Positions 2,660 through 26,980 of a stretch of DNA of 32,484 bases are shown one piece after another. Numbering within the stretch: the first letter of the stretch is position 1; each line of letters opens with the position of its first letter. This stretch comes from a virus. Position numbers and translations under genes: made by a program. The DNA is taken from positions 1 through 32,484 of the IMG/VR virus record IMGVR_UViG_3300009182_000204; one strand, written 5' to 3'. The notes under the pieces were generated by a model, which saw only the letters and a program-made list of their open reading frames with translations, was not told where the DNA came from and ran no database searches.

Positions 2660-3057
2660 TGAATTTACTATACATCAACCAAATTGGTTCAGATTATAAA
2701 GGTCAAAAACAATATGAATTTATTTTCAGTAAATCTACTGAGATTGAGGTTGAGGAATGGTTTATAGTCCCTGCATCATCTTCAAGTTATCCAATGTCTC
2801 CGGGTGTTGAATATATAGATCTTGTAGGTTTATTAAAAAATACTGATATTGACTTAGAACTTATTCAAAACTCCGATTATTTCGGAGTTATTGATGCTGT
2901 AGATGGTGTGGTATCATTAGGTTGGGAAAAATTTAATTTTGATTCTGAATATCAAAGGTTAAGTTTTAAATTTGGCGAATCTTTAGATAACGTTACAAAA
3001 AAATTAAAATCAAGAGGACACGAATTAATAAAAGAAGAAATAAAAATTGAAATATAA
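2659..3057 (+). CDS. Conserved-looking hypothetical protein
   Basis: A 132-aa soluble protein with no signal peptide, membrane segment or motif that I recognise. It has a strand-rich N-terminal part and a lysine/glutamate-rich helical end. It is tightly packed between two genes with TAATG overlaps at both ends, which makes it part of one coupled operon with the acidic 434-aa protein and the EF-hand protein. Function unknown. Confidence 0.6.
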   Translation: MNLLYINQIGSDYKGQKQYEFIFSKSTEIEVEEWFIVPASSSSYPMSPGVEYIDLVGLLKNTDIDLELIQNSDYFGVIDAVDGVVSLGWEKFNFDSEYQRLSFKFGESLDNVTKKLKSRGHELIKEEIKIEI

Positions 3058-4196
3058 TGAAAAGAAATGAATTAGTCGGTATCCTTATTAAAGAAGGATT
3101 TTCCGAAAAAACCTTGGTAAATTTTAGTGATAAACAACTTATTACTTTATCTAGTAGAATTTTATCAGAACAAACAATTCCTACATTGAAAGTACCTAAA
3201 GATTCGCCACAAGAAAAAGACGCAATGAATAAAAAACAATCATTTATTGCTTATGAAAACGAATTAAAAGGTGGACAAAAGAAATTAGATAAAAATCACA
3301 ACGGTAAACTTGATTCTCAAGATTTTAAAATATTGAGAGGTCAAAAAAAAGAAACTAAAGAAAGTGATGAAAAATGGATTCAAAAGGCAATTAATCCTGA
3401 TAAAAAAGGTGCATTGAAAAAATCATTACATGTTCCCCAAGATAAAAAAATACCAGCAAGTAAATTAAATTCCGCAGCAAAAAAAGGTGGTAAATTGGGT
3501 CAAAGAGCAAGACTTGCAAAAACATTAAGAAAACTTGATGAATCTAATTCTGAATTAAATGCTAAACGTAATTTACAATATGAATTAAGTGAAGCTGGCT
3601 GTTCTTCTCAAGATATTAATACGAAAGACATTAATGAATTGGCAGAAAAATTCTCAAAAAAATCTCAAGGTGTTAAATCTGCACACGATCACTATAAGAG
3701 AGTTACGGGAAAAGATATGACAAAAATCAACGAAAATTTGGCAATTAGAAATTGGGTTCGTACATTAGCTGAAAATAATTATCATTCATTTACATCAAAA
3801 AAAGAAATTATGAATTTAATCAGTGAAAAAATGAACAACACAGAAACAATGCAACCAATGCCATCTAAAGGAAAAAAAGGACACAATGGTATTCCTGAAT
3901 TTATGACTTATGATGCAATTACATCATCAAGTAGTCCTGCAGTTGCCCCAACAAAACCAAAAGTTGCTCCCGGTACAAAACCATCACAACCAACTAAACC
4001 GAAGAAAACTCCGTTTAGACCAACCCCACAAGTTCAACCAAATCCTGAAGCAATGAAGGAAAATGAACCTGCTGTTGCCCCAACAAAACCAAAAACAAAA
4101 CCTGGTACAAAACCTGCTGAACCAACTAAACCAAAGAAAACTCCGTTTAGACCAACACCACAGGTTCAACCAAATCCTGAAGCTAAAAAGAAATAA
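3057..4196 (+). CDS. EF-hand-like protein with C-terminal Pro/Lys repeats
   Basis: A 379-aa basic protein. Residues 78-89 form a calcium-loop pattern DKNHNGKLDSQD with D78, N80, N82, K84, D86 and D89 at the classical ligand positions. A lysine-rich region follows, then a helical segment (about 224-258) containing RNWVRTLAENNYHSFTSKKE. The C terminus carries two 39-residue copies of a proline/lysine repeat (294-332 and 338-376). The N terminus (MKRNELVGILIKEGFSEKTL) and the later RILSEQ resemble, loosely, the tagged N termini described for minus-strand genes, so it may be a head-internal protein. Calcium binding is plausible; the biological role is unknown. Confidence 0.6.
   Translation: MKRNELVGILIKEGFSEKTLVNFSDKQLITLSSRILSEQTIPTLKVPKDSPQEKDAMNKKQSFIAYENELKGGQKKLDKNHNGKLDSQDFKILRGQKKETKESDEKWIQKAINPDKKGALKKSLHVPQDKKIPASKLNSAAKKGGKLGQRARLAKTLRKLDESNSELNAKRNLQYELSEAGCSSQDINTKDINELAEKFSKKSQGVKSAHDHYKRVTGKDMTKINENLAIRNWVRTLAENNYHSFTSKKEIMNLISEKMNNTETMQPMPSKGKKGHNGIPEFMTYDAITSSSSPAVAPTKPKVAPGTKPSQPTKPKKTPFRPTPQVQPNPEAMKENEPAVAPTKPKTKPGTKPAEPTKPKKTPFRPTPQVQPNPEAKKK
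3936..4184 (+). repeat. Two direct in-frame repeats of a 39-residue Pro/Lys unit
   Basis: Copies at 3936-4052 and 4068-4184 encode PAVAPTKPK, a short variable stretch, then PTKPKKTPFRPTPQVQPNPE. They are nearly identical at the protein level and separated by only 15 bases, so they are a recent internal duplication in a disordered tail. Confidence 0.85.
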
Positions 4197-4214: not shown

Positions 4215-5750
4215 ATGCATATTACTAAGAAAAATTTACTATCTTTGCTGAAACAAAATTTAAATGAAATGGCAATGGATTTCGATTCAGCAGATAGACC
4301 ACACTCAGATGTGACTGGTGCATTATCAACAGGTAACACACCTCTAAAAAAAATACCACTACCTAAAACAAGTGGTAATCCACATAATAATTTCCAAGAA
4401 TTATTAGCATCAGAACGTTATAAAGAAGTAATAAGAAACATTAGACGTTATACCGGTGTTCAAGATACTCTTAGTGGTAATTCAAATTCTAGATTATTAA
4501 GTATGATGTTTAATGCCCATAATCAGATTATTCGTATTGAAAGAGATCATAAAGAAGATTTAATACGATTGGCAGTTGAATTGGTTTGTAAAGATATGGG
4601 TATTAATGAGGATGATCTTAATTTTAAAGTAAAATTAACTGATTCATCTGAAATAGATACAAATAAATTTAATAGGAATCAACCTAATGAAGAAAATCCA
4701 GAAGAAGTTGAACCTGGTGATGAAGAACAACCTCAACAACCTCAACAACAAGGTAATAGCGAAGAAGAAGAAATTTTCTTTAGTCTTGAAAGATTAAACA
4801 TGGAAAGAGCTAAACAAAGACTTTTAAATGCGATTACACAAGGTGCATCTAATAGAGGTCACTACATGTATCATGCAGTTGAGGAAGAATTAAGACAAAT
4901 AACTGGTTCTGATGAATTAATTAACCTTTATGGTATTATGATGTCAATTAATGATACCAATTATTGGCAATTCGGTAATAATACAGTTGCAGACATGCAA
5001 AGTTCTGTTGCCGGTAGAGTTGATGTTCACATTCCAAATGTAAAAGACGATGAAGAAGATATGGATGGTGGAGAAGGTGAAGAAGGTGAAGAACAAGGTG
5101 GTGATGGGTTCGTTAATATACCCGAAAACTTTAATCCTGAAGCACCAACTATTACAGTAATAGGTGTTAATTTTCCTGTTATACTTCATGAACTAATTAA
5201 AGGTGTTTTAAAAGTATTTAAATCACATGGTCAAGGTGATCCTTCAAAAAAGAATGAGAAAGCGTTATATGCACAGGTTGCTAAACATGAAAACACGTTA
5301 GAAAAAGAAGTTTGGGATTTAAGATTAGGTCCAGCAATATGGGCAAGATTAAGAGAATCATTTCCTGATGAAGTTTTAGAAGAAAATAATAAAGATTTAC
5401 AGAATTATTTATTCATGAATATTTTCTCACTTCCAGCAAAGAAATTCTTAGTGTTCATGAAAGAAGTTATATCAGGTTCAGATAGTGGAAAACGTTTAAT
5501 TATTACAATGGTTCAATCAATAAAACAAATGTTTAGAGATGAGGATTATCAATCCGCAATTGGTAGTTTTAATGATGATTTAGAAGACGCGACAGATGAA
5601 ACTGATGAAGGTGATTTAGGTGATTTCTTAGGTGATTTAGGTATTTCTTTATCAAGTGGTGATGAAACAAATACAAATGATGATGAGGAATATGATGATT
5701 TTTTAAATAGTTTAGATCTCGATAACTATGATAATGATGATGATGATTAA
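4215..5750 (+). CDS. Acidic 511-aa protein upstream of terminase, probably structural
   Basis: The protein alternates folded-looking parts with acidic linkers (about 155-190, 270-300, 455-511). The central hydrophobic segment ITVIGVNFPVILHELIKGVL and a helical block with LFMNIFSLPAKKFLVFMKE look like conserved cores. The N terminus, MHITKKNLLSLLKQNLNE, is an amphipathic helix ending in L-x-E and resembles the putative capsid-targeting tags. It is followed by a strong terminator, then terminase. No family recognised; a virion or head-assembly role is inferred from position and composition. Confidence 0.6.
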   Translation: MHITKKNLLSLLKQNLNEMAMDFDSADRPHSDVTGALSTGNTPLKKIPLPKTSGNPHNNFQELLASERYKEVIRNIRRYTGVQDTLSGNSNSRLLSMMFNAHNQIIRIERDHKEDLIRLAVELVCKDMGINEDDLNFKVKLTDSSEIDTNKFNRNQPNEENPEEVEPGDEEQPQQPQQQGNSEEEEIFFSLERLNMERAKQRLLNAITQGASNRGHYMYHAVEEELRQITGSDELINLYGIMMSINDTNYWQFGNNTVADMQSSVAGRVDVHIPNVKDDEEDMDGGEGEEGEEQGGDGFVNIPENFNPEAPTITVIGVNFPVILHELIKGVLKVFKSHGQGDPSKKNEKALYAQVAKHENTLEKEVWDLRLGPAIWARLRESFPDEVLEENNKDLQNYLFMNIFSLPAKKFLVFMKEVISGSDSGKRLIITMVQSIKQMFRDEDYQSAIGSFNDDLEDATDETDEGDLGDFLGDLGISLSSGDETNTNDDEEYDDFLNSLDLDNYDNDDDD

Positions 5751-5771: not shown

Positions 5772-5803
5772 AAAAGGTGGTAATTTTTTACCACCTTTTT
5801 TTT
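5772..5803 (+). terminator. Rho-independent terminator before terminase
   Basis: A 12-bp inverted repeat (AAAAGGTGGTAA at 5772-5783 with TTACCACCTTTT at 5788-5799) encloses a TTTT loop and is followed by T residues. It would form in the leader if a GTG at 5777 were used for terminase, which argues for the ATG at 5816 instead. Confidence 0.85.
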
Positions 5804-5815
5804 GTATTTATTTAT

Positions 5816-6805: not shown

Positions 6806-6993
6806 TAGAATTTGATGGGATTTATTGGCACAGAAATTCAAAAGAAAAAGATGAAATAAGAGATGTGACCTATAAAAATTTAGGTTATCAGATACTAATC
6901 ATAAGTGAAAATGATTTAATAGATAAAAAAAATAAAATTAGTGATGAATTAATTAGTAAATGTGTAAATTTTATAAAAAATGAAAATAAATAA
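6796..6993 (+). pseudogene. Remnant of a Vsr-like (EDxHD-type) homing endonuclease
   Basis: A third frame, open from about 6796 to TAA 6991-6993, encodes IIEFDGIYWHRNSKEKDE and then KNLGYQILIISENDL. This matches the second half of Vsr-like/EDxHD nucleases: strand-turn-W-H, then G-Y-x-(I/L)-(I/L)-x-I-x-E-x-D. The closest in-window parallel is the intact enzyme at 19713, with IEYNGLYFH and GYKLIQIFEDEW. The N-terminal catalytic part and any start codon are missing, so I call it a remnant. It lies exactly between the two split-intein halves and overlaps the start of the IntC gene by 14 bases, as expected for a 'fractured gene'. Confidence 0.65.
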
Positions 6994-7303
6994 TAAATAC
7001 GAAATATTAACTCCAAATGGTTTTGAAGATTTTGATGGTGTACAAAAATTAAAAAAGAAAACGATTGAAATATTTTTTAATAATGATTTAAATCTTAGAG
7101 GTTCATTTAATCATCAAATATATGATTATGAGGGAAATCCAATTAAATTATCAAATATAAAAATTGGTGATAAAATCAAATCACATAATGGATTTTTAAC
7201 AGTAAAAGATATAAAGAAACACTATAATAAAACAAATGTTTTTGATATTATTAATTCGGGTAAAGACCATCTTTTTTATTCAAATGATATCATTTCACAT
7301 AAT
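6980..7303 (+). mobile_element. C-terminal half of a split intein in terminase (IntC, 108 aa)
   Basis: It opens with KYEILTPNGFEDFDG and ends SHN before Cys+1. The internal block B His (SFNHQI) and the penultimate His are present. With the 31-aa IntN this makes a 139-aa mini-intein without an endonuclease domain. The resemblance to the IntC of AceL-TerL is from memory. Confidence 0.82.
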
Positions 7304-14293: not shown

Positions 14294-15667
14294 TTATAAA
14301 TAATATAATAAATCATCTTCATGAACTAAGTTTTTAATAAGTTTAGTAACGCCATCTTTATTTTTTGAATATTTAATAATATTTTTTAGTTGTTCTAAAT
14401 TTTTATATAGAACATTTCTTACTTTATTTAAACCAATTAACTTTGAGAATTTAATTGGTTTATTTGTTGTTTGTAATATTGCTACTATGTCTTGTGGTGT
14501 TATATTTGTTTTATTTTCTATTATATATTCAAAAATTTTATCTGAATTTTCAAATTTTTTAAGAATGTGGTATAGTTTATATGACGTTAAAGAATTGAAT
14601 TTATTTGGGTGAACTAATAATAATTCTATTTCATTAAATCTTTTATCAAAATCATCGGAATCGTCCATTTTTGTATAAGTATCAAAATTTTTATTTGTAA
14701 TATCCACGTATCTTTTAAGTAAATTTTTATTATTTTTAATTAATTCAAATTGTTCATCACTAAGAGATGGTGATAATCCAATATATTTGTTCTTTAAATC
14801 TTCAGGTAAAATTTTAAATTGATTATACGTCAAATCTCCATTATTTGTTACGAATATGTCTATATAAAATTCTTTTTCTTTATATGGTAATCTTGCAAAA
14901 TCATCATCACTTAATTTATTTCGATATAATTTAATTTTTTCTCTTTCTTTTGGAGTTAAAGGTTTTGGTTGAAATATTTTTCTTAACCCATTTAATTCGG
15001 GTACTTTTTCTAATATTTCTTGCCATGACATAAGAAAATCACCATCATTGATTGCGGAAGTTAATTTATATATTTTTGTATATTTATCTTCTTCATTCGC
15101 AAGTTTTAAAGCTTGAATAACGAAAAAATGATACTTATCGTTTTTTATTACATTTTTTCTTTTAACAAAGTAAAACGATGGTTCATCTTCTTCATTTAAT
15201 CTATAATTATAAAACATATTACTTGAATCAGATCTAGATATACACCAAGAATAATTACCTTCTCCTTTATAATGTATACACGCCCTAGGAGTATCTGCAT
15301 AATAGATTTCTACATCATTATTTTCAAATATTGATTTACCATCTATCTTAAAATCTTCAAAATTTTGTGATCCAAACTTTCTTTGTCCTGCAACATAATC
15401 CACTAGGATTTCTAATTCTTTAAATGTTTTATAATTATCTACATTAAATCGGGGTTCACCGGTTGGTACACTTAAACCTGGTAATTCAATGTCTCTCGCT
15501 TCTCTATATTTTTTATTTCTGATTTCATTAAAATCATCCAAATATTTTTTTACAATATTTTGACTAAACCCTTGTTGAATATATTTTTGAGTTTGAGTTT
15601 TAAAATCTTCATTTAATGTTTTTTTTATTATTAAACTTAATTGATTTTCAGATAATATGATTTTCAT
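14294..15667 (-). CDS. Tagged 457-aa protein of unknown function
   Basis: It begins MKIILSENQLSLIIKKTLNE, one of the clearest copies of the repeated N-terminal tag ending in L-x-E. The middle contains ACIHYKGEGNYSWCISRSD (129-147) followed by SSNMFYNYR and SFYFVKR, a Cys/Trp-rich segment I have seen in large phage proteins without a known role. The second half is helical, with repeated leucine-rich stretches. The gene lies antisense between portal-region genes and gp21. A purine-rich AGAAGGG 7 bases before ATG could act as a ribosome binding site, unusual here. I infer a head-internal protein delivered with DNA; the activity is unknown. Confidence 0.65.
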   Translation of the reverse strand: MKIILSENQLSLIIKKTLNEDFKTQTQKYIQQGFSQNIVKKYLDDFNEIRNKKYREARDIELPGLSVPTGEPRFNVDNYKTFKELEILVDYVAGQRKFGSQNFEDFKIDGKSIFENNDVEIYYADTPRACIHYKGEGNYSWCISRSDSSNMFYNYRLNEEDEPSFYFVKRKNVIKNDKYHFFVIQALKLANEEDKYTKIYKLTSAINDGDFLMSWQEILEKVPELNGLRKIFQPKPLTPKEREKIKLYRNKLSDDDFARLPYKEKEFYIDIFVTNNGDLTYNQFKILPEDLKNKYIGLSPSLSDEQFELIKNNKNLLKRYVDITNKNFDTYTKMDDSDDFDKRFNEIELLLVHPNKFNSLTSYKLYHILKKFENSDKIFEYIIENKTNITPQDIVAILQTTNKPIKFSKLIGLNKVRNVLYKNLEQLKNIIKYSKNKDGVTKLIKNLVHEDDLLYYL

Positions 15668-15737
15668 TATTTCCCTTCTTTAATACATAAATATTAATGT
15701 TTTTAATAAGATTAAATGAAAATCTATAATATCGACA

Positions 15738-15745
15738 TATTTATA
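15738..15745 (+). promoter_or_regulatory. Possible late promoter upstream of prohead protease
   Basis: TATTTATA, followed by G-T-A-A-T-A, stands 17 bases before the gp21 ATG in the 95-base gap between divergent genes. The spacing matches that before the portal gene, and a similar box precedes the scaffold gene. Confidence 0.35.
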
Positions 15746-15762
15746 GTAATAACAAACTATAA

Positions 15763-16449
15763 ATGAAGGTATTAGGATTAAATGATATTGGAGTAAAAGG
15801 TTACCTTATCGAATACGATAGTGGATACGTATCTCCTAAAGAAAATACTAAAATCATACAGGAAATGAAGGATTTGGACTTCTCAGAAGACCTTATCCTT
15901 TATGCTGTGCTACAAAAATACGATACCCCAAACAAAAACGGAAGAATTTATCCCGAAGTATTATTAAAAAGGGAAAATGACAAGTATCAATCAGTTATAA
16001 AAAAAGGTGGGGCGTTGAACGAATTAAATCACCCTTCGTCATCTTTAATTGATTTAGATAGAGTTTCACATTCAATATTGGAAACATGGTGGGATGGAAA
16101 AATGTTAATGGGTAAAATTAAATTATTCACATCACCAGGTTGGAAAAAAATGGGTATTGTAAGTACCAAAGGTGACCAAGCAGCAATGTTATTAATGAAC
16201 GGAGCAACACTTGGTATTTCTTCACGCGGTGTTGGTTCATTAAAAAATGTTAAAGGACAAAATATTGTTCAAGATGATTTTGAATTGGTGTGTTTTGACT
16301 TAGTATCATCACCATCTACACCGGGAGCATACATTTTTGCAGACCCATCTGAAAGAGATCAATACCAAGAATCAGAACAAGAAAAACCTGCAGTAGATGA
16401 TCGTATGAAAAAATTAATGGGTAATTTAAATAATTTTTTATCAAAGTAA
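15763..16449 (+). CDS. 21: Prohead core protease (gp21-like)
   Basis: A 228-aa serine protease of the T4 gp21 type. The catalytic His is H90 in ALNELNHPSS and the nucleophile is in LGISSRGVGS (S153/S154). YDTPNKNGRIYP (53-64) is a conserved N-terminal segment of this class. It acts inside the assembled prohead, degrading the scaffold and trimming capsid and internal proteins after (L/I)-x-E. Its target in the capsid protein here is probably LINE/A (residues 57-61 of gp23). It begins the block protease-scaffold-capsid, as in T4. The acidic C-terminal tail may help incorporation into the core. Confidence 0.9.
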   Translation: MKVLGLNDIGVKGYLIEYDSGYVSPKENTKIIQEMKDLDFSEDLILYAVLQKYDTPNKNGRIYPEVLLKRENDKYQSVIKKGGALNELNHPSSSLIDLDRVSHSILETWWDGKMLMGKIKLFTSPGWKKMGIVSTKGDQAAMLLMNGATLGISSRGVGSLKNVKGQNIVQDDFELVCFDLVSSPSTPGAYIFADPSERDQYQESEQEKPAVDDRMKKLMGNLNNFLSK

Positions 16450-16528: not shown

Positions 16529-17770
16529 ATGAGTCAAAAATCCATTTTAGAACAAGCTTTACTTCAAGTACAAAATCTTGAAGAAGCAGTTAAAGTGAAT
16601 GCAAAAGGAATACTTGAATCTACCATGAAACAAGAATTAAAAGATTTACTTAAAGAAAGTATGGAAGAAGAGGAAGATGTTACAACAGAAGCAGATGACG
16701 ATGTTGATACAAATCCTGACGAAGAGGAAACAGATGATATGTCAGACGACACAGATGAAACAGATGAAACAGATGTAGATGATACAGATGATGAAGATGA
16801 AGAAGGTGACGATACTGAAAATGACGAAGACCTTGATAATAACCTTGACAATGATTACGAAAGTGATGAAGATTCTTTAGATCAAGAAAGTGAAGAAGAT
16901 GAACCATCAATGGATGATTCAGATGTTATGGACATGACAGGAGCATCACATGATGAGGTTTTGAAAGTTTTTAAAGCAATGAAACCAGAAGATGGTATTG
17001 TAGTTAAGAAAGACGGAAACAAAATTGAATTCAATGATGGTGAATCTGATTACATTATCAAACTTGATAATGAGGGTGATATGGATGAAAGTTTGGAACA
17101 TGATATGGACGAAAATGATAATCCATTCTCAAAAAAAGTTGGTAAATTAAAAGAAAGAGGTACATCAATCTCAATGGATGAAAATGGTGATCCTTTTTCA
17201 AAAAAAGCTGGTAAATTAAAAGAAAGAGGTACATCAACTGCAATTGACGAAACAGATGAAACTGTTTATGAAATTGAACTTGATGATGAAGGTAAAGAAG
17301 GTGATCAAAATGAAGCGGCAAGAACATTCGGTAATGGAGTAAGAGGACCAAAACAAAAACATAAATATGAGGCTGGTCGTCACGAAATGAATGAAGAAAT
17401 TAGTAAATTAAGAAAACAAAATTCTGAGTATAAGAAAGCTTTGGTTTTATTCAAAGACAAACTTAACGAGGTTGCAGTATTCAACGCTAATCTTGCACAC
17501 ATGACACGTTTATTTTCTGAACAAACAACAACTAAAAAAGAGAAATTGAATATTATTAAGAGATTTGATTCAATTTCTTCAATAAACGAATCTAAGAATT
17601 TGTTTACGATAATCGAAACTGAATTAACTGACAAAAAACCAATTAGTGAAACAGTAGTAGAAAAAATCTCTATGACACCTACATCTTCTTCTACAAATGT
17701 ATTATCAGAAGCAAAAGCATATGAAAATCCACAGTTTAAGAGAATGAAAGATTTAATGTCAAAAATATAA
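16529..17770 (+). CDS. 22: Prohead scaffold/core protein (gp22-like)
   Basis: A 413-aa very acidic protein lying between gp21 and gp23, as in T4. The N-terminal helix (about 1-48) is followed by a long Asp/Glu/Thr-rich region (45-135), a small folded part, two 23-residue tandem repeats (193-215, 216-238), a coiled coil (about 282-330), and a C-terminal end YENPQFKRMKDLMSK of the kind seen in T4-like scaffolds. It fills the prohead and is degraded by gp21 before packaging. The assignment rests on position, composition and the C-terminal motif. It has a candidate promoter of its own just upstream. Confidence 0.8.
   Translation: MSQKSILEQALLQVQNLEEAVKVNAKGILESTMKQELKDLLKESMEEEEDVTTEADDDVDTNPDEEETDDMSDDTDETDETDVDDTDDEDEEGDDTENDEDLDNNLDNDYESDEDSLDQESEEDEPSMDDSDVMDMTGASHDEVLKVFKAMKPEDGIVVKKDGNKIEFNDGESDYIIKLDNEGDMDESLEHDMDENDNPFSKKVGKLKERGTSISMDENGDPFSKKAGKLKERGTSTAIDETDETVYEIELDDEGKEGDQNEAARTFGNGVRGPKQKHKYEAGRHEMNEEISKLRKQNSEYKKALVLFKDKLNEVAVFNANLAHMTRLFSEQTTTKKEKLNIIKRFDSISSINESKNLFTIIETELTDKKPISETVVEKISMTPTSSSTNVLSEAKAYENPQFKRMKDLMSKI
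17105..17242 (+). repeat. Tandem 69-bp repeat in scaffold gene
   Basis: Two head-to-tail units, 17105-17173 and 17174-17242, encode MDEN(D/G)(N/D)PFSKK followed by (V/A)GKLKERGTS. Only a few residues differ, so it is a recent duplication in the core protein. Confidence 0.85.
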
Positions 17771-17809: not shown

Positions 17810-19597
17810 ATGGGAGCATTATTAGAATCAGGTATGGTTGGTAATATAGGGTTAAAACACCTTAGAGTTATCAAAGAAGATACCATCAGCAAATGGGACT
17901 CATTAGGATTCTTAGAGGGTCTTGATGGTCATCAAAGAGAGAATGTGGCGCAATTATACGAAAACCAAGCGTCATATTTGATAAACGAAGCAGCAACAGC
18001 AGATGCATCAGGTTCTTTTGAAACTGTTGTATTCCCTATCATCAGACGTGTATTCTCTAAATTATTAGCGAATGATATCGTATCTGTACAGGCGATGAAC
18101 TTACCAATTGGTAAATTGTTCTTCTTCATTCCTAAAATCCAAGAAAGAAATAGTAATGATAGTAACAAACACTACCATCCTTATGGTTACCCAAGTACTT
18201 CAACTACATGGAACGAAGGTTATAACACAGGTGCAGTAAACTTGTATGATCGTTTCTACACTAGTGGTGATGGTAATGACGCAGGTTCAAGTTTATATGA
18301 CTATTCTAAAGGTCAATATTCTGCAATCACCGGTATCGCTCCAGCATCAGCAGTTACTTTTAGTAATGGTGCAATCACTAAGTTAGACCTTAAAACTATT
18401 ACAGGTGCATCTGCACAAGCAAATATTGTATTAGCATTTACTGGTTTTAGTACAACAGGTGAGGGTCAATTAATCGGACCAAATGGTGCTATCATGGATA
18501 CAGAAGAATTCTTAGCATCTATGGAAATCTTCTTAACAGGTAATTTAAGCGGAGCAACTAACCAATTTAATGGTTCTTTATCAAGAAACTTTTCTATCGT
18601 TACACAAAAATATGGTAAAGGTATTATTGAGTATGGTACTAAGAAAACATCAACATTCCCATCACAATCAAGTGGTCAATATTATGTGGATAAAGGTACA
18701 GAAGGTGGTACAATGTATGTTCAAGTGGATATGCAAAACTACACAACAACTGGTTTTACTAACATAGTACCTCCATCTGGTTTCACAGAATCTGACTTTG
18801 CATTAAGTTATAGAGTATACGATACATTGGAATTTGAAGATGAAATCGGTGAGGTTTCTTTCGATTTACAATCTGTAACTGTATCTGTAACAGAAAGAAA
18901 ATTAAGAGCATCATGGTCTCCTGAGTTAGCTCAAGACGTAAGTGCTTTCCATAACATCGATGCTGAGGCTGAATTAACAGCATTATTATCTGAACAAATC
19001 GCAGCAGAAGTTGACCGTGAAATCCTTCGTGATTTGAGAAAAGGTGCAGCATGGACAAGTAAATGGGATTACAATGAGTGGAGATATGGTGGAGCTAACG
19101 GTGCTACTTTACAAGGTTACACTCAAAAAGACTGGAACCAAACATTGATTACAAAAATCAATCAGGTATCTGCTCAAATCCATAAAACTACTTTAAGAGG
19201 TGGTGCTAACTGGATCGTTGTTTCATCAGAAGTTTCTGCTGTATTCGATGACTTAGAGTACTTCCACGTTTCAAACGCATCTCCTGAAGAAGATCAATAC
19301 AACATGGGTATCGAGAAAATTGGTACTTTAGGTGGTCGTTATCAAGTTTATCGTGATCCATACTTCCCACCTAACAAAGTGTTAATTGGACATAAAGGTA
19401 AATCATTGTTAGATAGTGGTTATATATACGCACCATACGTACCATTACAACTTACCCCAACAATGTTTAATCCGTTCACAATGACACCGATTAAAGGTAT
19501 TATGACAAGATACGCGAAAAAGATGGTTAATAATAAGTACTTCGGTGTTATTACCGTAAGAGGTATTCAAGTATTTAACAACGATACATTGAGATAA
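17810..19597 (+). CDS. 23: Major capsid protein (gp23-like)
   Basis: A 595-aa HK97-fold capsid protein of the T4 gp23 family. The N-terminal region carries KWDSLGFLEGLDGHQRENVA and LYENQASYLINEAA, then the conserved VVFPIIRRVFSKLLANDIVS. A gp21 processing site is likely after E60 (LINE/A), giving a mature protein of about 535 aa. C-terminal landmarks include ANWIVVSSEVSAVF and GTLGGRYQVYRDPYFP. Codon use is richer in C-ending codons than in its neighbours (TTC, AAC, ATC), which fits very high expression. The leader is a string of A-rich AAATA units with no Shine-Dalgarno sequence. A strong terminator follows. Confidence 0.95.
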   Translation: MGALLESGMVGNIGLKHLRVIKEDTISKWDSLGFLEGLDGHQRENVAQLYENQASYLINEAATADASGSFETVVFPIIRRVFSKLLANDIVSVQAMNLPIGKLFFFIPKIQERNSNDSNKHYHPYGYPSTSTTWNEGYNTGAVNLYDRFYTSGDGNDAGSSLYDYSKGQYSAITGIAPASAVTFSNGAITKLDLKTITGASAQANIVLAFTGFSTTGEGQLIGPNGAIMDTEEFLASMEIFLTGNLSGATNQFNGSLSRNFSIVTQKYGKGIIEYGTKKTSTFPSQSSGQYYVDKGTEGGTMYVQVDMQNYTTTGFTNIVPPSGFTESDFALSYRVYDTLEFEDEIGEVSFDLQSVTVSVTERKLRASWSPELAQDVSAFHNIDAEAELTALLSEQIAAEVDREILRDLRKGAAWTSKWDYNEWRYGGANGATLQGYTQKDWNQTLITKINQVSAQIHKTTLRGGANWIVVSSEVSAVFDDLEYFHVSNASPEEDQYNMGIEKIGTLGGRYQVYRDPYFPPNKVLIGHKGKSLLDSGYIYAPYVPLQLTPTMFNPFTMTPIKGIMTRYAKKMVNNKYFGVITVRGIQVFNNDTLR

Positions 19598-19712: not shown

Positions 19713-21428
19713 ATGAAAAGAATTTTAGATAATAAAGATATTGAAAATATAATAAGATTATATAAAACTGATGTTAAAAGTACGCATAAGTTAAGTGAAA
19801 TGTTTGGTGTTGGTCATAAAAAGATTTCACAGGTATTAAAAGAGAATAATGTTGAAATAAATAAAAAGGGTGGTCAGGAAAAAATTGGAAATAGTGATAT
19901 TATTGAAAAATCTAAAATAAATCGTTATGTGACAGATACAATTGGTCATAAATTAATTGTGGTATGTAAAAAAACAAATAAAATCTTTGATGATGTAAAT
20001 AATGTATCTGGTTGTTTGACAAGACATATTGTTGAAACATATGGTGATGTTGACATTCCGGTCACAAATTACCAAAGAAAAAAATATGAACATATCAATA
20101 ATAAGAAATGGTTTGAAGAATATTTTGATATAAGAGAAATACTAAAAAAAGATTATAGGAAATGTTGTTTATGTGACTGGGAGACTACTGATATTGAAAA
20201 TAAAACTGGATGTTTTGAGACTCATATCAATAGTGTTCATAAAATAACATTAAATGAATATTTAGAAAAATTTCCACAAGATATTAAATACCATAAAACT
20301 TATTTAAAGGAAAAAGAAAGAATTACTGAATTTTTAGATGAAAAAAATTATGTGAGATGTAAGTTATGTGATCAAAAAATGAAAACAATCACCAATAAAC
20401 ACCTTATGGAAAAACATAACATTTCTTGTTATGATTATAAGATAAAATTTCCAAATGAAATATTATCATCAAAATTGACTAGAAGTAAAATGAGTCATAA
20501 TACTAAGATGAGTAATATTAATATGTCTCCAACATGGTCATCAAGTGGTGAAATTGAGTTAAGGGAATTTATTGAATCTTTAGGTTTTAAAACTGAAAAG
20601 GGTAAAAATAGAAAAATTTTAAATGGTAAAGAGATAGATATTATAATACCAGAGTTTAAAATTGGGATAGAGTACAATGGTTTATATTTTCATACCGAAA
20701 AAATGGGTAAAAATAGTTCATATCATTTGAATAAAACAATTGAATGTAATAAAATTGGTTATAAATTAATTCAAATATTTGAAGATGAGTGGGTTGTAAA
20801 AAAAGATTTAGTTAAAAGTAAAATTAGACATATTTTAAAAATAAATAATGGTATTAAAATTGGTGGAAGAAACGTTATCATAAAAAGAATCGACTCATTA
20901 TTAAAGTCTAATTTTTTAAACATAAATCACATACAAGGAAACGATAATTCAAAAATACATTATGGTGGATTTTATAAAAATGAATTAATTGGTGTGATGA
21001 CATTTAACGATAAAAGAAATATGACAAAAAACAAAGATGAACAATATGAATTATCAAGGTATTCAATTAAAGAAGGATATGTTGTTAATGGGTTGGCATC
21101 TAAATTTATAAAAACATTTAAAAATGAATATTCCCCAAAAAATATTATCAGTTTTGCTGATAGAAGATGGACATTAGATCCTGAAAATAATTTATATATT
21201 AAAATGGGGTTTAAATTAGTTGGTATAAACAAACCTACCTACACTTATTACAATTCAAAAAAAAATAAATATAAACGTTTTCATAAATTTGGTTTTGGAA
21301 AAAACTCTTTAAAATTAAAACATCCAGATTTAGATTTTACAAAATCAGAAAAAACATTAATGAATGAACTTGGTTATGAGAGAATTTGGGATTGTGGGAT
21401 GTTTAAATATGAATTATTTTTTGATTAA
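19713..21428 (+). CDS. Free-standing homing endonuclease, Vsr-like/EDxHD type, with zinc-finger motifs
   Basis: A 571-aa multidomain protein. Residues 1-50 form a helix-turn-helix. Two Cys2-His2 motifs follow: C151/C152-C154...H171-H176 and C216-C219...H230-H235. Next is a nuclease core with SSGEIELREF (E280), GKEIDIIIPEFKIGIEYNG (D309) and FHTEKMGKNSSYHLNK, ending GYKLIQIFEDEW (350-360). This is the pattern of PD-(D/E)xK-like, EDxHD homing endonucleases of phages. The C-terminal 190 residues (RIDSLLKSNFLN..., SFADRRWTL, YIKMGFKLV) resemble an acetyltransferase-like domain common at the end of such enzymes. It sits just after gp23 behind the terminator, with a host-type promoter. The likely target is a conserved site nearby or in a related phage. 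Confidence 0.8.
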   Translation: MKRILDNKDIENIIRLYKTDVKSTHKLSEMFGVGHKKISQVLKENNVEINKKGGQEKIGNSDIIEKSKINRYVTDTIGHKLIVVCKKTNKIFDDVNNVSGCLTRHIVETYGDVDIPVTNYQRKKYEHINNKKWFEEYFDIREILKKDYRKCCLCDWETTDIENKTGCFETHINSVHKITLNEYLEKFPQDIKYHKTYLKEKERITEFLDEKNYVRCKLCDQKMKTITNKHLMEKHNISCYDYKIKFPNEILSSKLTRSKMSHNTKMSNINMSPTWSSSGEIELREFIESLGFKTEKGKNRKILNGKEIDIIIPEFKIGIEYNGLYFHTEKMGKNSSYHLNKTIECNKIGYKLIQIFEDEWVVKKDLVKSKIRHILKINNGIKIGGRNVIIKRIDSLLKSNFLNINHIQGNDNSKIHYGGFYKNELIGVMTFNDKRNMTKNKDEQYELSRYSIKEGYVVNGLASKFIKTFKNEYSPKNIISFADRRWTLDPENNLYIKMGFKLVGINKPTYTYYNSKKNKYKRFHKFGFGKNSLKLKHPDLDFTKSEKTLMNELGYERIWDCGMFKYELFFD

Positions 21429-21763: not shown

Positions 21764-22203
21764 TGGAGTGGAATGAGTATTTTTTAGGTATTGCAGAACA
21801 AGTAAAATTAAAATCAAAAGATATTAACACACAGATAGGTGCAGTTATCGTTGGTAGTGATAAGGAGATACTTTCTACGGGTTATAATTCATTTCCAAGG
21901 GGTTTGGATGATACGAAAGAAGAACGTCAGGAAAGACCTGAAAAATACTTTTGGATGGTTCATGCCGAAGCAAATGCAATATATAATGCTGCGAGAGTTG
22001 GAACACCAATAAAAGACTCTTCAATGTATATTACATCAGGTGTACCATGTATGGATTGTGCAAGAGGGATTATAAACTCTGGTATTAAGAAAGTATATTG
22101 TAAACGAGTTTGTACTACTACAAATAAAGATATGTGGGAAGAACACCAAAAACGTAGTATTGATATGTTACATGAATGTGGTGTGGATGTTATATTTTAT
22201 TAG
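21763..22203 (+). CDS. cd: Deoxycytidylate (dCMP) deaminase
   Basis: A 146-aa zinc enzyme converting dCMP to dUMP, feeding thymidylate synthesis for phage DNA. The zinc ligands are visible: H67 and catalytic E69 in HAEANAI, C96 and C99 in PCMDCA. Length and motif spacing match dCMP deaminases of phages and bacteria, with a NSFPRGLDD loop (42-50) contributing to the nucleotide site. It is in an early-type operon with the SAP gene under a host-like promoter. It ends convergently, overlapping the last 14 bases of the minus-strand ADP-ribosyltransferase-like gene. Confidence 0.92.
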   Translation: MEWNEYFLGIAEQVKLKSKDINTQIGAVIVGSDKEILSTGYNSFPRGLDDTKEERQERPEKYFWMVHAEANAIYNAARVGTPIKDSSMYITSGVPCMDCARGIINSGIKKVYCKRVCTTTNKDMWEEHQKRSIDMLHECGVDVIFY

Positions 22204-22689
22204 GTAATTGATCGTAATAATTTTTTAATTGATGTTCATATTCAAAATATTTTATATTATCCGGTGGGTTATAATTAACCATTTCTCTACCTTTAATAAC
22301 CAAACCATCATAACCTAAATCTAACATTTCAGTTCTTATATCAGTTTGATTAAAAAATTCATTAGGTTTATATGAGATATTACGTTCTTTACACCAATTA
22401 TTAATTACATTTTGAAGAAAGATTTCTGCCAAATTTGTATCATGAACAACTTTTGGTGTTTTTGGAATTGCGTTTAATACGAAATAAACTTTACCGTATT
22501 TGTTTGCCATGTCTTTATTACCTAAAAACGCAGTATAAAACCAGAACCAAATCTACCTCCACCATTGTTTTCTTTTCCAAGTTCTGTAACACCACGTAAT
22601 GTCACGTTTTTACGTTTCCATTTGAGATAATCTTTATGAGATTGTTCGTATAATATTTTAAATTGATTTTCTGTTATAATTATTTTCAT
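22190..22689 (-). pseudogene. ADP-ribosyltransferase-like protein with N-terminal tag, broken by a -1 frame shift
   Basis: ATG 22689 overlaps the kinase-like stop (ATGA) and opens MKIIITENQFKILYE, a clear tag copy. The frame closes at 22522 after 55 residues, in GGRFGSGF. One frame back, translation continues as YTAFLGNKDMANKYGKVYFV to 22190, so the two frames make one about 167-aa protein. TLRG, FGSGFYTAF...A-x-x-YG and GYDGLVIKGREMVNY (with the likely catalytic Glu) fit a mono-ADP-ribosyltransferase fold. The break is at a run of four T (22537-22540 on the coding strand). A one-base deletion, an assembly error or programmed slippage would all explain it. In T4, the tagged, packaged ADP-ribosyltransferase is Alt. 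Confidence 0.55.
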
Positions 22690-23612
22690 AATAACGATTT
22701 AATAATTCTATTAATGTAGTTTGGTGGAGTTCTTTTTATGTTATTTTGATTGGTTACCGAACCTTTAATCCATTCGCTTAAATCACTAATTTCATTATAG
22801 TCAACATCAGTATCATCATCAATTAAATCAACGTATTTACTCCAAGTCTTATCATAACCTTCCTTTGTCATCATTTCTAAAAAATCAGCTGCCATTGGGT
22901 GTTTTTTTCTTATAAAATCAATAACTTTTGGTGAAATGTGTTTATTTAAATTTTTTAATAATATTTCATTAATTTGTATATAATATTTATTGATTAATTT
23001 TGTTATTTTTAATTTTTCTAGTATGATTATAAAATATTCTTTTTCATCTTTTCCGATGTATCTTTTCACATCATAAACTTCAGCAAGATGTTGTGGTGTT
23101 TTTCCAATTAATTTATTTGAATTAACCGCTTCGGTTTTATCGGTAGTTATTTTTAATACTTTATCGTTTCCGATGTCGTATGCCATTCCAAACTCACCAC
23201 CCTTACCTAATTTTCTATGTTTTAATTCTGTGAATTTTTTAATTATTTTAGATAAACTTCTATTATCAATATTAAGTTTTGTTTCATCTAACTCTAAATT
23301 TTGTACATCAGTTTCAAAGTTTTCAAAAAAATTTCCAAAACCAATATCGAAATAACCTATATTACCATTCTTTTTAAAACCGATATTATTTAAATTAACA
23401 AAATCTTCAGAATTAATATGATAATATTTTAATTCATCGATTATCCCAATAAATTGATTAAAAACCCATAAAAGTTTTTTATCATCAATTTTAACATTAG
23501 GTTTATCATTATAAACATAATAATTAATCAAGATTTCGGATACATAATCAATATCATTACTTTCAGTTAAAATTAATTTTTTTAATTGTGATTCGTTTAA
23601 TAAGATTTTCAT
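22686..23612 (-). CDS. Protein-kinase-like protein with N-terminal tag
   Basis: 308 aa, beginning MKILLNESQLKKLILTES (tag, I-L-T-E/S). The kinase-like part is at 131-205: a glycine loop GKGGEFGMAY (136-145), VLKIT with the candidate ATP-binding K154, a possible helix-C Glu (E161) and the hinge-like FIIILEKL. No HRD or DFG motif is visible in the C-terminal 100 residues, so this is either a divergent or a catalytically dead kinase, or an N-lobe-like ATP-binding domain. It lies between the oxidoreductase and the ADP-ribosyltransferase-like gene, coupled to the latter by ATGA. A role in modifying host proteins early in infection is inference. Confidence 0.6.
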   Translation of the reverse strand: MKILLNESQLKKLILTESNDIDYVSEILINYYVYNDKPNVKIDDKKLLWVFNQFIGIIDELKYYHINSEDFVNLNNIGFKKNGNIGYFDIGFGNFFENFETDVQNLELDETKLNIDNRSLSKIIKKFTELKHRKLGKGGEFGMAYDIGNDKVLKITTDKTEAVNSNKLIGKTPQHLAEVYDVKRYIGKDEKEYFIIILEKLKITKLINKYYIQINEILLKNLNKHISPKVIDFIRKKHPMAADFLEMMTKEGYDKTWSKYVDLIDDDTDVDYNEISDLSEWIKGSVTNQNNIKRTPPNYINRIIKSLL

Positions 23613-23641
23613 ATTAATTAAAGTTATTATATTAAAAAACC

Positions 23642-24415
23642 TTATTTATCATTTGATAATTTAGTATCTTTTATGAATTTAGTATGAGAATTTTTATAAG
23701 ATTTTTGTGATTCATCTTCCACATCTTTTGTGTATTGCCAGTTCCAATATAAATTATCGTTTGGTTTGAAACCATAAAATCTATGTACTTCTTTTTGTAG
23801 ATTATTTACATTTTCACCATTCCAATTTTGACCAACACATATATAACCAGTTTCAATATCTTTTATTATATTAGTTTCTCCAAGTGTTGTATGTCTATTC
23901 TCCAACCAATTTAATCTTTCAATTAGATTTTGATAATACATATTAGTTTGTCCCCATCTTATTGAACTAAAAAAAATAACAGTATCAGATTCAAACAATT
24001 CTTTAGATATTTTCCATAACTCGTCAGATTTGTTATTGATATTCACCCAACATCTATGATGTCCTGTTGGGTTCTTATTTTTATCTTTAAGTTCCGCATC
24101 TTTTAATCCACAACTATTACCGTCTTTTCTTGATACATTACCTTCACAAGGTAATATTTTTAGGTCGGTAACATCAATTAAAACACAATCATCACCTAAT
24201 TCTTCTTTAATATACATCGCTAATAATTTTGACTTAGGTATATCAATATTAACTTCATCAAAATTATATCTATTTGAACAACTTAATAATAGAATTTTTT
24301 TCTTTGTTTTAAGAATATCTATTGTCTTTTTTATTGACTTCCAAGCATCTGATTGAACCATTTCCTCGGAAATCATTATTTGTCTTATTCTTTCTATATT
24401 TTCGTTTAAATTCAT
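23642..24415 (-). CDS. Flavodoxin-fold NAD(P)H/FMN reductase-like protein
   Basis: 257 aa. After an N-terminal segment NLNENIERIRQIMISEE (a variant tag ending in I-S-E) comes a flavodoxin-like domain: strand ILLLSCSNRYN (41-51, FMN phosphate loop region), strand DTVIFFSSIRWGQTNMYY (144-161, flavin-contact loop) and NLIERLNWLE. Cys90, Cys102 and Cys122 form an extra cluster not usual in the simple family. Such enzymes reduce flavins or quinones with NAD(P)H. It is the first gene of a minus-strand operon with kinase-like and ADP-ribosyltransferase-like genes. The fold is fairly sure; the substrate is unknown. Confidence 0.65.
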   Translation of the reverse strand: MNLNENIERIRQIMISEEMVQSDAWKSIKKTIDILKTKKKILLLSCSNRYNFDEVNIDIPKSKLLAMYIKEELGDDCVLIDVTDLKILPCEGNVSRKDGNSCGLKDAELKDKNKNPTGHHRCWVNINNKSDELWKISKELFESDTVIFFSSIRWGQTNMYYQNLIERLNWLENRHTTLGETNIIKDIETGYICVGQNWNGENVNNLQKEVHRFYGFKPNDNLYWNWQYTKDVEDESQKSYKNSHTKFIKDTKLSNDK

Positions 24416-24486
24416 ATTAATATAAATATAATAAAAAAATAAATAAATTTTACCATATTTTACATGTCCAATATGAAATTTTGTTA

Positions 24487-24494
24487 TATTTATA
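24487..24494 (+). promoter_or_regulatory. Possible promoter element TATTTATA before GIY-YIG gene
   Basis: TTATATTTATAATAAAA repeats the string seen before scaffold and the 28351 gene; ATG follows after 14 bases. It lies in the 93-base gap between divergent genes. Confidence 0.35.
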
Positions 24495-24508
24495 ATAAAA
24501 GGTAAGTT

Positions 24509-25402
24509 ATGATAATTTATAAATCAACAAATAAAGTTAATGGTAAGATATATATTGGACAAACAATTAATAGTTTGGAATCAAGAATTAAAAATCATAT
24601 CAAAGAAAGTAAAAAAGAAAATGTAATAAGACCATTTTTAAAAGCAATAAAAAAATATGGTATTGAAAATTTTTCATTTGAAATAATTGATCATGCAAAT
24701 AATTTAGACGAATTAAATGAAAAAGAAATAATTTGGATTAGTGAATTTAATTCAATTTTACCTAATGGTTATAACATAACTGGAGGTGGACAAGGTAAAA
24801 AATTAAAGACAACAGATGAATTTAAAAAAACAATATCAGAAGGATTAAAAAAATCAGAAAAATGGCAAAAAATATTACAAAGTGAAGAATATCAAAATAA
24901 AATAAAAAATAATTTTATTGCATTTAATAAGGGTAAAAAATTCACAAAAGAACATAAAGATAAAATTTGGGAAGGAAATAAAGAACGAATTTTAAAATAT
25001 AATAAAAGTACCTCTAAAGAATGGATTATTGTTGATGTAAATAACAATATAAAAAGAATAACAGGAAAAGAAGAGTATTTTAAAAATTTAGGGATGGATT
25101 CTGGTAATATGAGTAGAATGGCAAATAAACTAAATAAAAATAAAGTAATTAAAAGATATAACGGATATTATTGTTTCATTAATAATGGGGAATCTGATGA
25201 GATAATATTAAATAATGTTATAGAATTAGACAATATTTATAAAACAGAGTTTAATATTTATAATAAAATAACACAAGAGACTAAAATAATAAAAAAAGAT
25301 GAAATATATTCTTTCTGTGTGAGAGAAAGTCATGATTATTCATCTTTTTTAAGAATGATTAAAGGTAAATTTAAAACATATAAAAATTGGAGTCTTAAAT
25401 AA
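24509..25402 (+). CDS. GIY-YIG homing endonuclease
   Basis: 297 aa. The nuclease domain spans about 1-90: IIYKSTNKVNGKIYIGQT (the GIY-YIG strands), R26 in SLESRIKNH, KKYGIENFSFEII, and the metal-binding Glu near LNEKEIIWISEFNS, ending NGYNITGGGQGK. The C-terminal part has NUMOD-like DNA-binding segments: KGKKFTKEHKDKI (about 153-165) and a helix-turn-helix-like module with KEEYFKNLGMDSGNMSRM. It is a free-standing mobile gene inserted between two minus-strand operons, in the opposite orientation. Its target is probably a neighbouring or allelic phage sequence. Confidence 0.85.
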   Translation: MIIYKSTNKVNGKIYIGQTINSLESRIKNHIKESKKENVIRPFLKAIKKYGIENFSFEIIDHANNLDELNEKEIIWISEFNSILPNGYNITGGGQGKKLKTTDEFKKTISEGLKKSEKWQKILQSEEYQNKIKNNFIAFNKGKKFTKEHKDKIWEGNKERILKYNKSTSKEWIIVDVNNNIKRITGKEEYFKNLGMDSGNMSRMANKLNKNKVIKRYNGYYCFINNGESDEIILNNVIELDNIYKTEFNIYNKITQETKIIKKDEIYSFCVRESHDYSSFLRMIKGKFKTYKNWSLK

Positions 25403-25403
25403 A

Positions 25404-25446
25404 AAAAAATATCTTATAAAATTATAATTTTATAAGATATTTTTTA
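25404..25446. terminator. Bidirectional terminator between convergent genes
   Basis: A long AT-rich inverted repeat: AAAATATCTTATAAAATT and its complement AATTTTATAAGATATTTT, with A/T tracts on both sides. It serves the GIY-YIG gene and the minus-strand 247-aa gene whose stop is just beyond. Confidence 0.8.
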
Positions 25447-25447
25447 A

Positions 25448-26191
25448 CTACCAGGCTCTGCAACTCCAGTAGCGCGGGCGATCTCTTGGACCTGGATTAT
25501 CACATTTCATTCTTGCTCTAAATGATTTTCTTCTTTCTGGATTATTTTTCTTAATAACCATTCTTTTACCATGAGCTGATTTACCACCAAAACCAAAGTT
25601 TACTTTAACGACTTTACCTTTATCATTTTTAACAAAAACTCTAAATTTTTTGATGTCTCCCTGCATGATTTTACCCAACTGAACTTTTCTACCTTGGTAT
25701 TCGGCTTCATTCAATAATTCATCAGGAATAAAATTAGTGTTTTGAACTGACCCAAATTCATCTTCAAAGATGATATCATTATTTTCATCAAATTCATTTA
25801 AAGAATGTATTTCTTTTAAAATTAAATTTGTAATGTCACTTATAATTTCTTCATTATAATGAGTTAATTTAGGGGTATTACCAGTACCACTTTTTGGGTG
25901 TGTTTTTTCTGCGTTTCTTTTTTGATTTGTCATTCCTTTCTTTTCTTTTTTTGTATATGAACTAGCGGTTTTTGGGGTTTCTTTTGAAACTTTTTTGGAT
26001 GGTCTACATTTTGGGTAACTTCCATCTGCTGCTTTCTTTCTTCCACATGGTGGATGTTTTCCATTAACCTTTTTGCTAACATCTACCCACTTTTCTTTAA
26101 ACCATCTATTAAGATCTTCTTTTAAAACCTCACCAGATTCTAAAGATTCTTGAATATATTTTAAATCTTCTTTATTTACTAATATTTTCAT
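25448..26191 (-). CDS. Tagged basic two-domain protein, probably head-internal
   Basis: 247 aa, beginning MKILVNKEDLKYIQES (tag; I-Q-E/S). Domain 1 (about 26-115) is basic and Cys/Pro-rich: RWFKEKWVDVSKK, HPPCGRKKA and YPKCRPSKKVSKETPKTA. I associate it with a phage domain of unknown function (possibly DUF5872, from memory). Domain 2 (about 165-247) has GRKVQLGKIMQGD, KVNFGFGG, RRKSFRARMKCDNPG and ends RYWSCRAW; it is also widespread in phages and uncharacterised. Both halves are lysine/arginine-rich, which suits DNA contact inside a capsid. It is last of three consecutive tagged genes, and a terminator follows. Confidence 0.65.
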   Translation of the reverse strand: MKILVNKEDLKYIQESLESGEVLKEDLNRWFKEKWVDVSKKVNGKHPPCGRKKAADGSYPKCRPSKKVSKETPKTASSYTKKEKKGMTNQKRNAEKTHPKSGTGNTPKLTHYNEEIISDITNLILKEIHSLNEFDENNDIIFEDEFGSVQNTNFIPDELLNEAEYQGRKVQLGKIMQGDIKKFRVFVKNDKGKVVKVNFGFGGKSAHGKRMVIKKNNPERRKSFRARMKCDNPGPRDRPRYWSCRAW

Positions 26192-26199
26192 TTTATATA

Positions 26200-26415
26200 T
26201 TATTTAACTGTTCTCCATCCACCACCTTTGGATTTATATCTTTTAGATGCGGCACCATTACAATATGCACTTGGACAGACTTTGTATTTAGATCTTGCCC
26301 ACGCTAAACAACTAGCCCATAATTTTGAATTTGTTGGTTTATGTTTTGCTTCATCAATTTCCATTTCTTCATTAAGGATTAATTTTAATTGTTCTTCTGT
26401 TATTATTATTTTCAT
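26200..26415 (-). CDS. Small tagged basic protein, 71 aa
   Basis: About a quarter of the protein is the tag, MKIIITEEQLKLILNE. After the presumed L-N-E cut comes a short acidic linker, then a compact Cys-rich basic unit: KLWASCLAWARSKYKVCPSA, YCNGAASKRYKSKGG. Three Cys (plus Trp and Lys) suggest a small metal-bound or disulfide fold. It stands between two other tagged genes, with 8 bases to the next, so they form one operon. A T4 internal-protein-like role is inferred. Confidence 0.65.
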   Translation of the reverse strand: MKIIITEEQLKLILNEEMEIDEAKHKPTNSKLWASCLAWARSKYKVCPSAYCNGAASKRYKSKGGGWRTVK

Positions 26416-26421
26416 AATTTA

Positions 26422-26967
26422 TTAATTAATATATGCGTTTAGTTCGTATTTTTTACCCAAGTGAGTTACTTGTATTTGTAATGCTTTTCTTTGTTCTTTT
26501 CCGTTTTTGTAAAGGGTTATGGTAAATCTATTTGTTTTACCATCTCTTGGTCTAGCAGGACCCAGTCCTATTTTGGTTGATGTTTCATCTTTATCATATT
26601 CATAACCTCTTGATTCTGCGTATTCTAATGCTGAATTTATTGCGGAGGTATAAGAATCATGGTATGTTTCATAATCAGATTTTGATTCATTTAAATTTTG
26701 TTGTTCAAAATAACCTTCCATAAAATTTGCAACTTCTTCGATGTCATCTTTTGATGTTGTGATATGATCTGCTGCCCAAGCATGTTCACCAGTTATTAAT
26801 TTATCAAAACCTGGATGATGTTTAAAATTTAATATTTTTTCAATATCATTTTTCATATTTATTAAATTAGAAAGAACCATATAAGTTCCATCATTTTTTT
26901 CTTCTTCCATTTGTTCAGAAAGAATTCTTTTTAATTGTTCTTCTGTTATTTTAATTTTTGTTTTCAT
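26422..26967 (-). CDS. Tagged protein of 181 aa, probably head-internal
   Basis: I take the ATG at 26967, because it begins KTKIKITEEQLKRILSEQ (tag; I-L-S-E). The longer start at 27003 would overlap the upstream gene and add 12 residues unlike other tags. After an acidic linker and a helical part (SNLINMKNDIEKIL, about 34-47), the C-terminal 85 residues contain YTSAINSALEYAESRGYEYD, RFTITLYKNGKEQRKALQIQ and end KYELNAYIN, a strand-rich domain I recognise as common in marine phages but unassigned. It is directly downstream of the 456-aa structural gene and first of three tagged genes. Confidence 0.65.
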   Translation of the reverse strand: MKTKIKITEEQLKRILSEQMEEEKNDGTYMVLSNLINMKNDIEKILNFKHHPGFDKLITGEHAWAADHITTSKDDIEEVANFMEGYFEQQNLNESKSDYETYHDSYTSAINSALEYAESRGYEYDKDETSTKIGLGPARPRDGKTNRFTITLYKNGKEQRKALQIQVTHLGKKYELNAYIN

Positions 26968-26980
26968 AATATATAAATAC

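Follow-up and report, generated by a model that had tools for sequence, protein, structure and literature searches.

Several unrelated accessory proteins encoded by the viral record IMGVR_UViG_3300009182_000204 begin with a common short N-terminal leader, which is very probably a capsid-targeting propeptide that works like the capsid-targeting sequence (CTS) of phage T4 and belongs to a real, lineage-specific system. The window, that is, the whole stretch of DNA analyzed here, is the entire IMG/VR record of 32,484 bases, and it contains a T4-like head module with terminase, portal, gp21-type protease, a scaffold-like gene, and a gp23-type capsid protein. The leader ends in a candidate protease site, (I/L)-x-E, is swapped between protein bodies, goes with phages that bear gp21, and sits on genes that have an upstream box in common with structural genes. 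A sequence-only reading of this DNA had named six minus-strand gene starts (15667, 22689, 23612, 26191, 26415, and 26967) as tagged. All six do carry the leader (consensus MKI(I/L)xxExQLKx(I/L)(I/L)xE), five in intact genes and one in a frameshifted gene. The tagged genes of the window, including one with a second type of leader, are arranged as follows (aa, amino acids):

14294..15607, minus strand: cargo body of 437 aa, with no Pfam match over the cut-off
15608..15667, minus strand: leader MKIILSENQLSLIIKKTLNE, class A long form, of the 457-aa gene 14294-15667
22190..22644, minus strand: body of the 22689 gene, in two frames in the window record; the earlier label 'ADP-ribosyltransferase-like' was not confirmed
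22645..22689, minus strand: leader MKIIITENQFKILYE of this 166-aa gene, frameshifted in the window record
22686..23561, minus strand: cargo body of the 23612 gene, 291 aa; the earlier label 'kinase-like' was not confirmed
23562..23612, minus strand: leader MKILLNESQLKKLILTE of the 23612 gene
23642..24364, minus strand: cargo body of the 24415 gene, flavodoxin-like at a sub-threshold level (Flavodoxin_5, E 0.034)
24365..24415, minus strand: class B leader MNLNENIERIRQIMISE of the 24415 gene
25448..25705, minus strand: second cargo domain of the 26191 protein, an 85-aa basic body, with AEYQGRKVQL right after LLNE
25706..26146, minus strand: first cargo domain of the 26191 protein, DUF5872 (PF19197, E 1.8e-12), plus linker; ends in LLNE, a second candidate site
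26147..26191, minus strand: leader MKILVNKEDLKYIQE of the 26191 gene
26200..26367, minus strand: small basic cargo body of the 26415 gene (PTNxxLW...PSAYxNG...GGGW), with homologues behind other leaders
26368..26415, minus strand: leader MKIIITEEQLKLILNE of the 26415 gene
26422..26913, minus strand: cargo body of the 26967 gene, with homologues behind other leaders
26914..26967, minus strand: leader MKTKIKITEEQLKRILSE of the 26967 gene

A one-base difference breaks the 22689 gene, which is intact, at 166 aa, in a 98.8-kb contig that is 99.97% identical (L322, L341); the break at 22190-22689 may therefore stem from a sequencing error or from a rare variant. The start at 24415, earlier described as a looser form of the tag, instead carries a second leader type, MNLxExIxRIxxMM..(I/L)xE, which is found on many other proteins.

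The leader is far more frequent at gene starts than elsewhere. Seven other related genomes were scanned with a score matrix built only from the six window leaders; the threshold of 10 bits was reached by 53 of 1,757 gene starts and by none of 3,774 internal methionines. A DNA pattern for MKIIITExQLK has more than 119 matches in IMG/VR viral contigs and none after codon permutation, and 257 Gb of bacterial and archaeal genomes contain no match to it. The leader profile matches at 34 positions in four genomes from the window lineage and, at E < 0.05, nothing in T4, immuto, Mel-JY01, RM378, a cyanophage-like record, or two huge phages; judged by these searches, the leader is lineage-specific. Its third codon positions vary, so selection acts on the protein, and a DNA- or RNA-level element is ruled out by the same variation.

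Leader classes were counted on the gene starts of 16 genomes. Class A, the tag itself, is present at 103 starts, class B (MNLQExIxRIKxMM..xE) at 21, and class C (ISExEKxRILxLH) at 6, and the same class patterns fit only 4 of 6,635 internal methionines. In class A, the site lies at residue 15-16 (short form) or at residues 20-23 (long form). Flavobacterium phage immuto has its own leader, ILSEQFKRMQKLAGIITE, at 2 gene starts. In this cultured phage (MW353175), the unrelated proteins at 25061 and 111675 have the common leader MKKQILSEQF(K/R)RMQ(F/K)LAGIITE/S (a slash outside brackets marks the candidate cut), which differs from the tag yet ends alike.

The end of the leader resembles a gp21 site. 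With the motif's own ITE left out of the count, (L/I)-x-E follows the class A motif in 84 of 103 cases, compared to 37 +/- 4.5 after shuffling, and the class B motif in 15 of 21, compared to 5.5 by shuffling. (L/I)xD follows the class A motif in only 22 of the 103. The site falls at residue 15-16 in 42 of the 84 class A leaders with (L/I)xE and at residues 20-23 in 23 of them. The claim that the window encodes both gp21 and a capsid protein with LINE/A was borne out by the protease match below and by the capsid site, which reads LINE/A or LINE/S in 85 of 85 copies examined among relatives. The relevant head genes are the following:

15763..16449, plus strand: gp21-type prohead protease that would do the cutting (phrog_207 head maturation protease, E 2.8e-39)
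16529..17770, plus strand: acidic scaffold-like protein between the protease and capsid genes, recognized by position and by weak homology to the immuto protein in the same position
17810..19597, plus strand: major capsid protein, gp23 type, with a proposed cut after residue 60, SYLINE/A

Leaders are exchanged between homologous bodies, and this exchange strongly supports the earlier view of a modular set of cargoes. A given body can stand behind a class A, a class B, or a generic helical leader, and it starts at the site. A body homologous to that of the 24415 protein is preceded by MNLNENIERIRQIMISE, MKSILEEELQRLKQLMLSE, or MNLQEELNRIKDMMRIVSE, and relatives of the 26415 and 26967 bodies are preceded by MKIIITEEQLKLILNE, MKTIKLTETQIKNLITNIISE, MKNIKTIIKKQLKNISE, or MINPRIKRIIETAIKE. 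An (L/I/V)-x-E lies within 9 residues of the leader/body junction in 105 of 122 cases, compared to 35% of random N-terminal windows, a count to be read as an effect size and not as a probability because the rows are related to each other.

The presence of a leader can also be compared across phages with and without the protease. The 85-aa basic body at the end of the 26191 protein is preceded by (L/I)xE/A in 16 of 16 copies of the lineage, and by LEE/A and LTE/A in the T4-like phages HTVC008M and C48C1, respectively; the C48C1 protein starts with a T4-style leader, MKKFKQYIDE. In Kolga, HTVC202P, HTVC111P, CRP-902, and CRP-738, the protein begins directly at this body (MAKYQG, MAKYKG, MATYKG, or similar; MAxYxG). 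The 26415-type body follows FVSE/E in cyanophage Sf-CH8 and YIEE/K in cyanophage S-BM3, and is the direct start of the protein in C72C1. The gp21 family is present in HTVC008M, C48C1, S-BM3, and Sf-CH8 and absent from the other seven phages, the six with a direct start and CRP-6. A leader with a site was found in 4 of 4 phages with gp21 vs 1 of 7 without (Fisher p about 0.015, computed by hand), and on these counts leader and site go with the protease.

A further link to the head pathway is a TATTTAT box. In eight genomes (G001-G008), most structural genes, whether for head or tail, have it 10-30 nucleotides (nt) ahead of their start codon. In the window, such boxes precede the terminase, portal, gp21, and scaffold genes and the tagged genes 15667, 24415, and 26967, including those at the following positions:

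15687..15693, minus strand: TATTTAT box before the 15667 gene
15738..15744, plus strand: TATTTAT box before gp21
24422..24428, minus strand: TATTTAT box before the 24415 gene
26973..26979, minus strand: TATTTAT box before the 26967 gene

Boxes were counted at most 45 nt upstream of genes with a gap of at least 30 nt. They precede 23 of 25 tagged genes and 30 of 42 structural genes, against 3 of 15 genes for replication, metabolism, or glycosylation and 195 of 719 others. TATTTAT is accordingly placed here as a candidate late promoter of the lineage. The T4 late promoter TATAAATA was also tested upstream and showed no clear enrichment; TATTTAT is the enriched box.

The identifiable cargoes are mostly peptidoglycan hydrolases, small basic proteins, and zinc ribbons. 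Domains above the Pfam cut-offs include Phage_lysozyme with LysM, Hydrolase_2, NlpC/P60 with a peptidoglycan-binding domain, and the Tae4 amidase, as well as PG_binding_1, HD, DUF5872, and Pterin_4a. The zinc-ribbon and DHH phosphoesterase matches are below these cut-offs, and most cargoes have no recognizable domain. The cell-wall hydrolases would fit a role as entry enzymes carried in the virion, but they may also act in lysis. One tagged protein (L141:14825-15505, in G006) has a Tae4 amidase domain, which is otherwise known from effectors of type VI secretion. For the 22689 and 23612 proteins, searches of Pfam, NCBIfam, PADLOC, and PDB sequences gave no support for the labels 'ADP-ribosyltransferase-like' and 'kinase-like', and structure models were uninformative (pLDDT 35 and 32, respectively). 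Single weak matches to PARP, ATLF, and CdiA_C were below the Pfam cut-offs and were not used.

Relatives of the window include a 162-kb contig (L003/G001) with a capsid protein that is 91% identical and several contigs of 130-270 kb; the isolates immuto and Microcystis phage Mel-JY01 are more distant. Among the 40 largest tagged contigs, 17 encode gp21, including 5 of the 6 above 200 kb. Tagged contigs without gp21 or gp23 could be suspected of coming from other kinds of phage; for seven that were examined this was rejected, as they have many genes in common with those of the T4-like reference set. Of 79 tagged loci, 75 have one or more homologues in the T4 lineage. The sequence-only reading had also suggested the tag on two plus-strand genes, where the motif is absent; these are head-region genes that keep (L/I/V)-x-E in the same place in most relatives:

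3057..4196, plus strand: conserved head-region protein, not the tag, with (I/V/L)xE near residue 38 in most relatives
4215..5750, plus strand: conserved head-region protein, not the tag, with N-terminal (L/V/I)xE/M in most relatives

Intein-like insertions split the genes for the terminase large subunit and the portal (window 5777-8179 and 8233-12831), and in G001 (77461-79308), as in a few further contigs, an in-frame insertion seemingly divides the gp21 gene too. Homing-endonuclease-like genes adjoin the capsid gene (19713-21428) and sit among the tagged genes (24509-25402). A 269-kb contig, G041 (IMGVR_UViG_3300032296_003307), contains a pair of T4-like head modules (25-37 kb and 228-238 kb), of which one resembles that of immuto and the other belongs to the window lineage; this suggests a chimeric assembly or a mixed record.

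The mechanism that we propose would run as follows. Late in infection, accessory proteins would be made, each headed by a leader of about 15-22 residues that is interchangeable with several others and is built from a short hydrophobic start, an amphipathic helix, and a terminal (I/L)-x-E. During head assembly, the leader would dock its protein to the prohead core, and gp21 would then cut after the E, releasing the mature cargo within the head, from which it would exit with the DNA at the next infection. The leader, its site, its swapping, its tie to gp21, and the box in common with structural genes are seen in the sequence; docking, cleavage, presence in virions, ejection, and the functions of the cargoes are predictions. 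For the original proposal, the site after the tag, the swapping, the co-occurrence with gp21, and the late-type box give good, if indirect, support to prohead sorting and to gp21 as the protease that removes the tag, and the 'injected effectors' part is something that we only infer. A broader reading, towards which we lean slightly, has uncultured phages of the lineage load 10-20 different proteins per virion, several cell-wall hydrolases included, by means of a small leader code. Leaders of classes A, B, and C and generic helices would be interchangeable in this code and recognized by one core and one protease, and leader, site, and TATTTAT together would predict virion cargo from sequence across many uncultured contigs.

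The leader might bring proteins into the virion and not, or not always, be cut, with (I/L)-x-E as part of the docking helix. This is compatible with the roughly 20% of class A leaders that have no clean site and with T4 IPIII, which is still targeted when Asp at position 10 leaves it unprocessed (PMC9026906). It is nevertheless unlikely, as E is strongly preferred to D at the leader end (84 vs 22 of 103), bodies start exactly at the site, and the P1' A of the 85-aa body matches that of the capsid site. We regard as very improbable that the leader recruits proteins to another late structure, such as the tail, baseplate, membrane, or lysis complex, with the tagged hydrolases serving as lysis or entry enzymes. 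The over-representation of Phage_lysozyme with LysM, Hydrolase_2, NlpC/P60, and Tae4 among the recognizable cargoes could be read in this way, as could the use of the late-type box by head and tail genes alike. However, leader and (L/I)xE accompany the head protease, T4- or cyanophage-style leaders, which are found on homologous bodies, target the head in T4, and the zinc ribbons, basic proteins, and DHH-like protein are no obvious lysis proteins. The least probable explanation, which we give hardly any weight, is that the N-terminus is a by-product, either a common helix cap or a recombination hot spot spreading with mobile accessory genes, with no sorting role. T-E-x-Q/E-L does resemble an ordinary capped helix, and most tagged genes are accessory (25 of 39 have no homologue in the other five genomes). 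Against this stand the restriction to one T4-like lineage, with no exact match in the bacterial genomes searched, the convergence of unrelated leaders on the same end, the loss of the leader in phages without gp21, and the promoter box in common.

Some observations weigh against a capsid-targeting propeptide, among them the class A leaders (about 20%) without a canonical (L/I)xE in the tested span. CRP-6 is without the gp21 family, yet has PLEE upstream of the 85-aa body. Several tagged proteins are peptidoglycan hydrolases, for which a location in the head needs a reason, and the native N-terminus of a tagged pterin dehydratase may merely resemble the tag. Homologous sequences are non-independent observations. 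As expected earlier, the tag is absent from replication genes (0 of 24), but only about one would be expected by chance, and this absence is weak and not statistically informative. Likewise, 0 of 87 recognized core-function genes are tagged, which is weak evidence because only about two were expected, and the difference in tag frequency between core and accessory genes is not significant. A literature search found no virion proteomics for the window lineage and no published proteomics for its nearest isolate, immuto.

For very few phages is the set of proteins carried into the host known. The leader, protease site, and promoter box mark accessory genes as a predicted cargo list in a widespread uncultured lineage, and two small protein families of marine phages are tied to the T4 head pathway. 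If confirmed, the system would provide a general annotation rule, candidate proteins for take-over, counter-defence, and entry, and new short leaders with which proteins could be loaded into phage heads.

Related strategies are found in other phages. Head and ejection proteins of SPN3US and phiKZ are, as proposed here, cut after Glu by a related protease, and the diverged paralogues gp53 and gp54 have identical N-termini (PMC5694885). They differ in their mostly long propeptides (>100 residues), another cleavage motif, and membership of another phage group. Further parallels are the leaders of cyanophages and pelagiphages (MKxFxQFLxE type; Kyanoviridae), where homologues of two window cargoes lie behind (L/I)xE. 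A cytidyltransferase-like protein of cyanophage Sf-CH8 starts MKSLFQFLSE/A, and a putative cytidylyltransferase family has been detected in virions of cyanophage S-SM1 (PMC3037559). These two findings offer independent support for enzymes in such heads, and the two proteins may belong to one family. Unlike in the window lineage, the cyanophage leaders are T4-style, and classes A, B, and C are at chance level in the cyanophage-like record searched.

The nearest functional counterpart is the T4 CTS of IPI, IPII, IPIII, and Alt, which is cut by gp21. Both systems place a short N-terminal leader with an (L/I)-x-E end on unrelated accessory proteins, and the window phage has homologues of gp21, gp20, and gp23. 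In T4, IPII and IPIII start MKTYQEFIAE/A and IPI starts MKTFKEFTSTTTPVSTITE/A; the 10-residue leader suffices for packaging, and positions 8 and 10 matter for processing (PMC9026906). The targeting sequence has been suggested to let T4-like phages take up varied proteins (reviewed in PMC9026906). Leaders are 10-19 residues long in T4 and 15-22 in the window lineage. Packaging and cleavage are proven for T4, whereas they are predicted for the window lineage. The leader sequence (MKIIITExQLKxII.E and others) is unrelated to that of T4, where the profile has no match, and the leader is for this reason best regarded as a functional analogue and not as a homologous member of the T4 CTS. A single genome can have several leader classes and up to about 10-20 tagged proteins, compared to four in T4. 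The leader sequence, the several classes, and the many more cargoes would thus be new with respect to T4, while the predicted function is the same.

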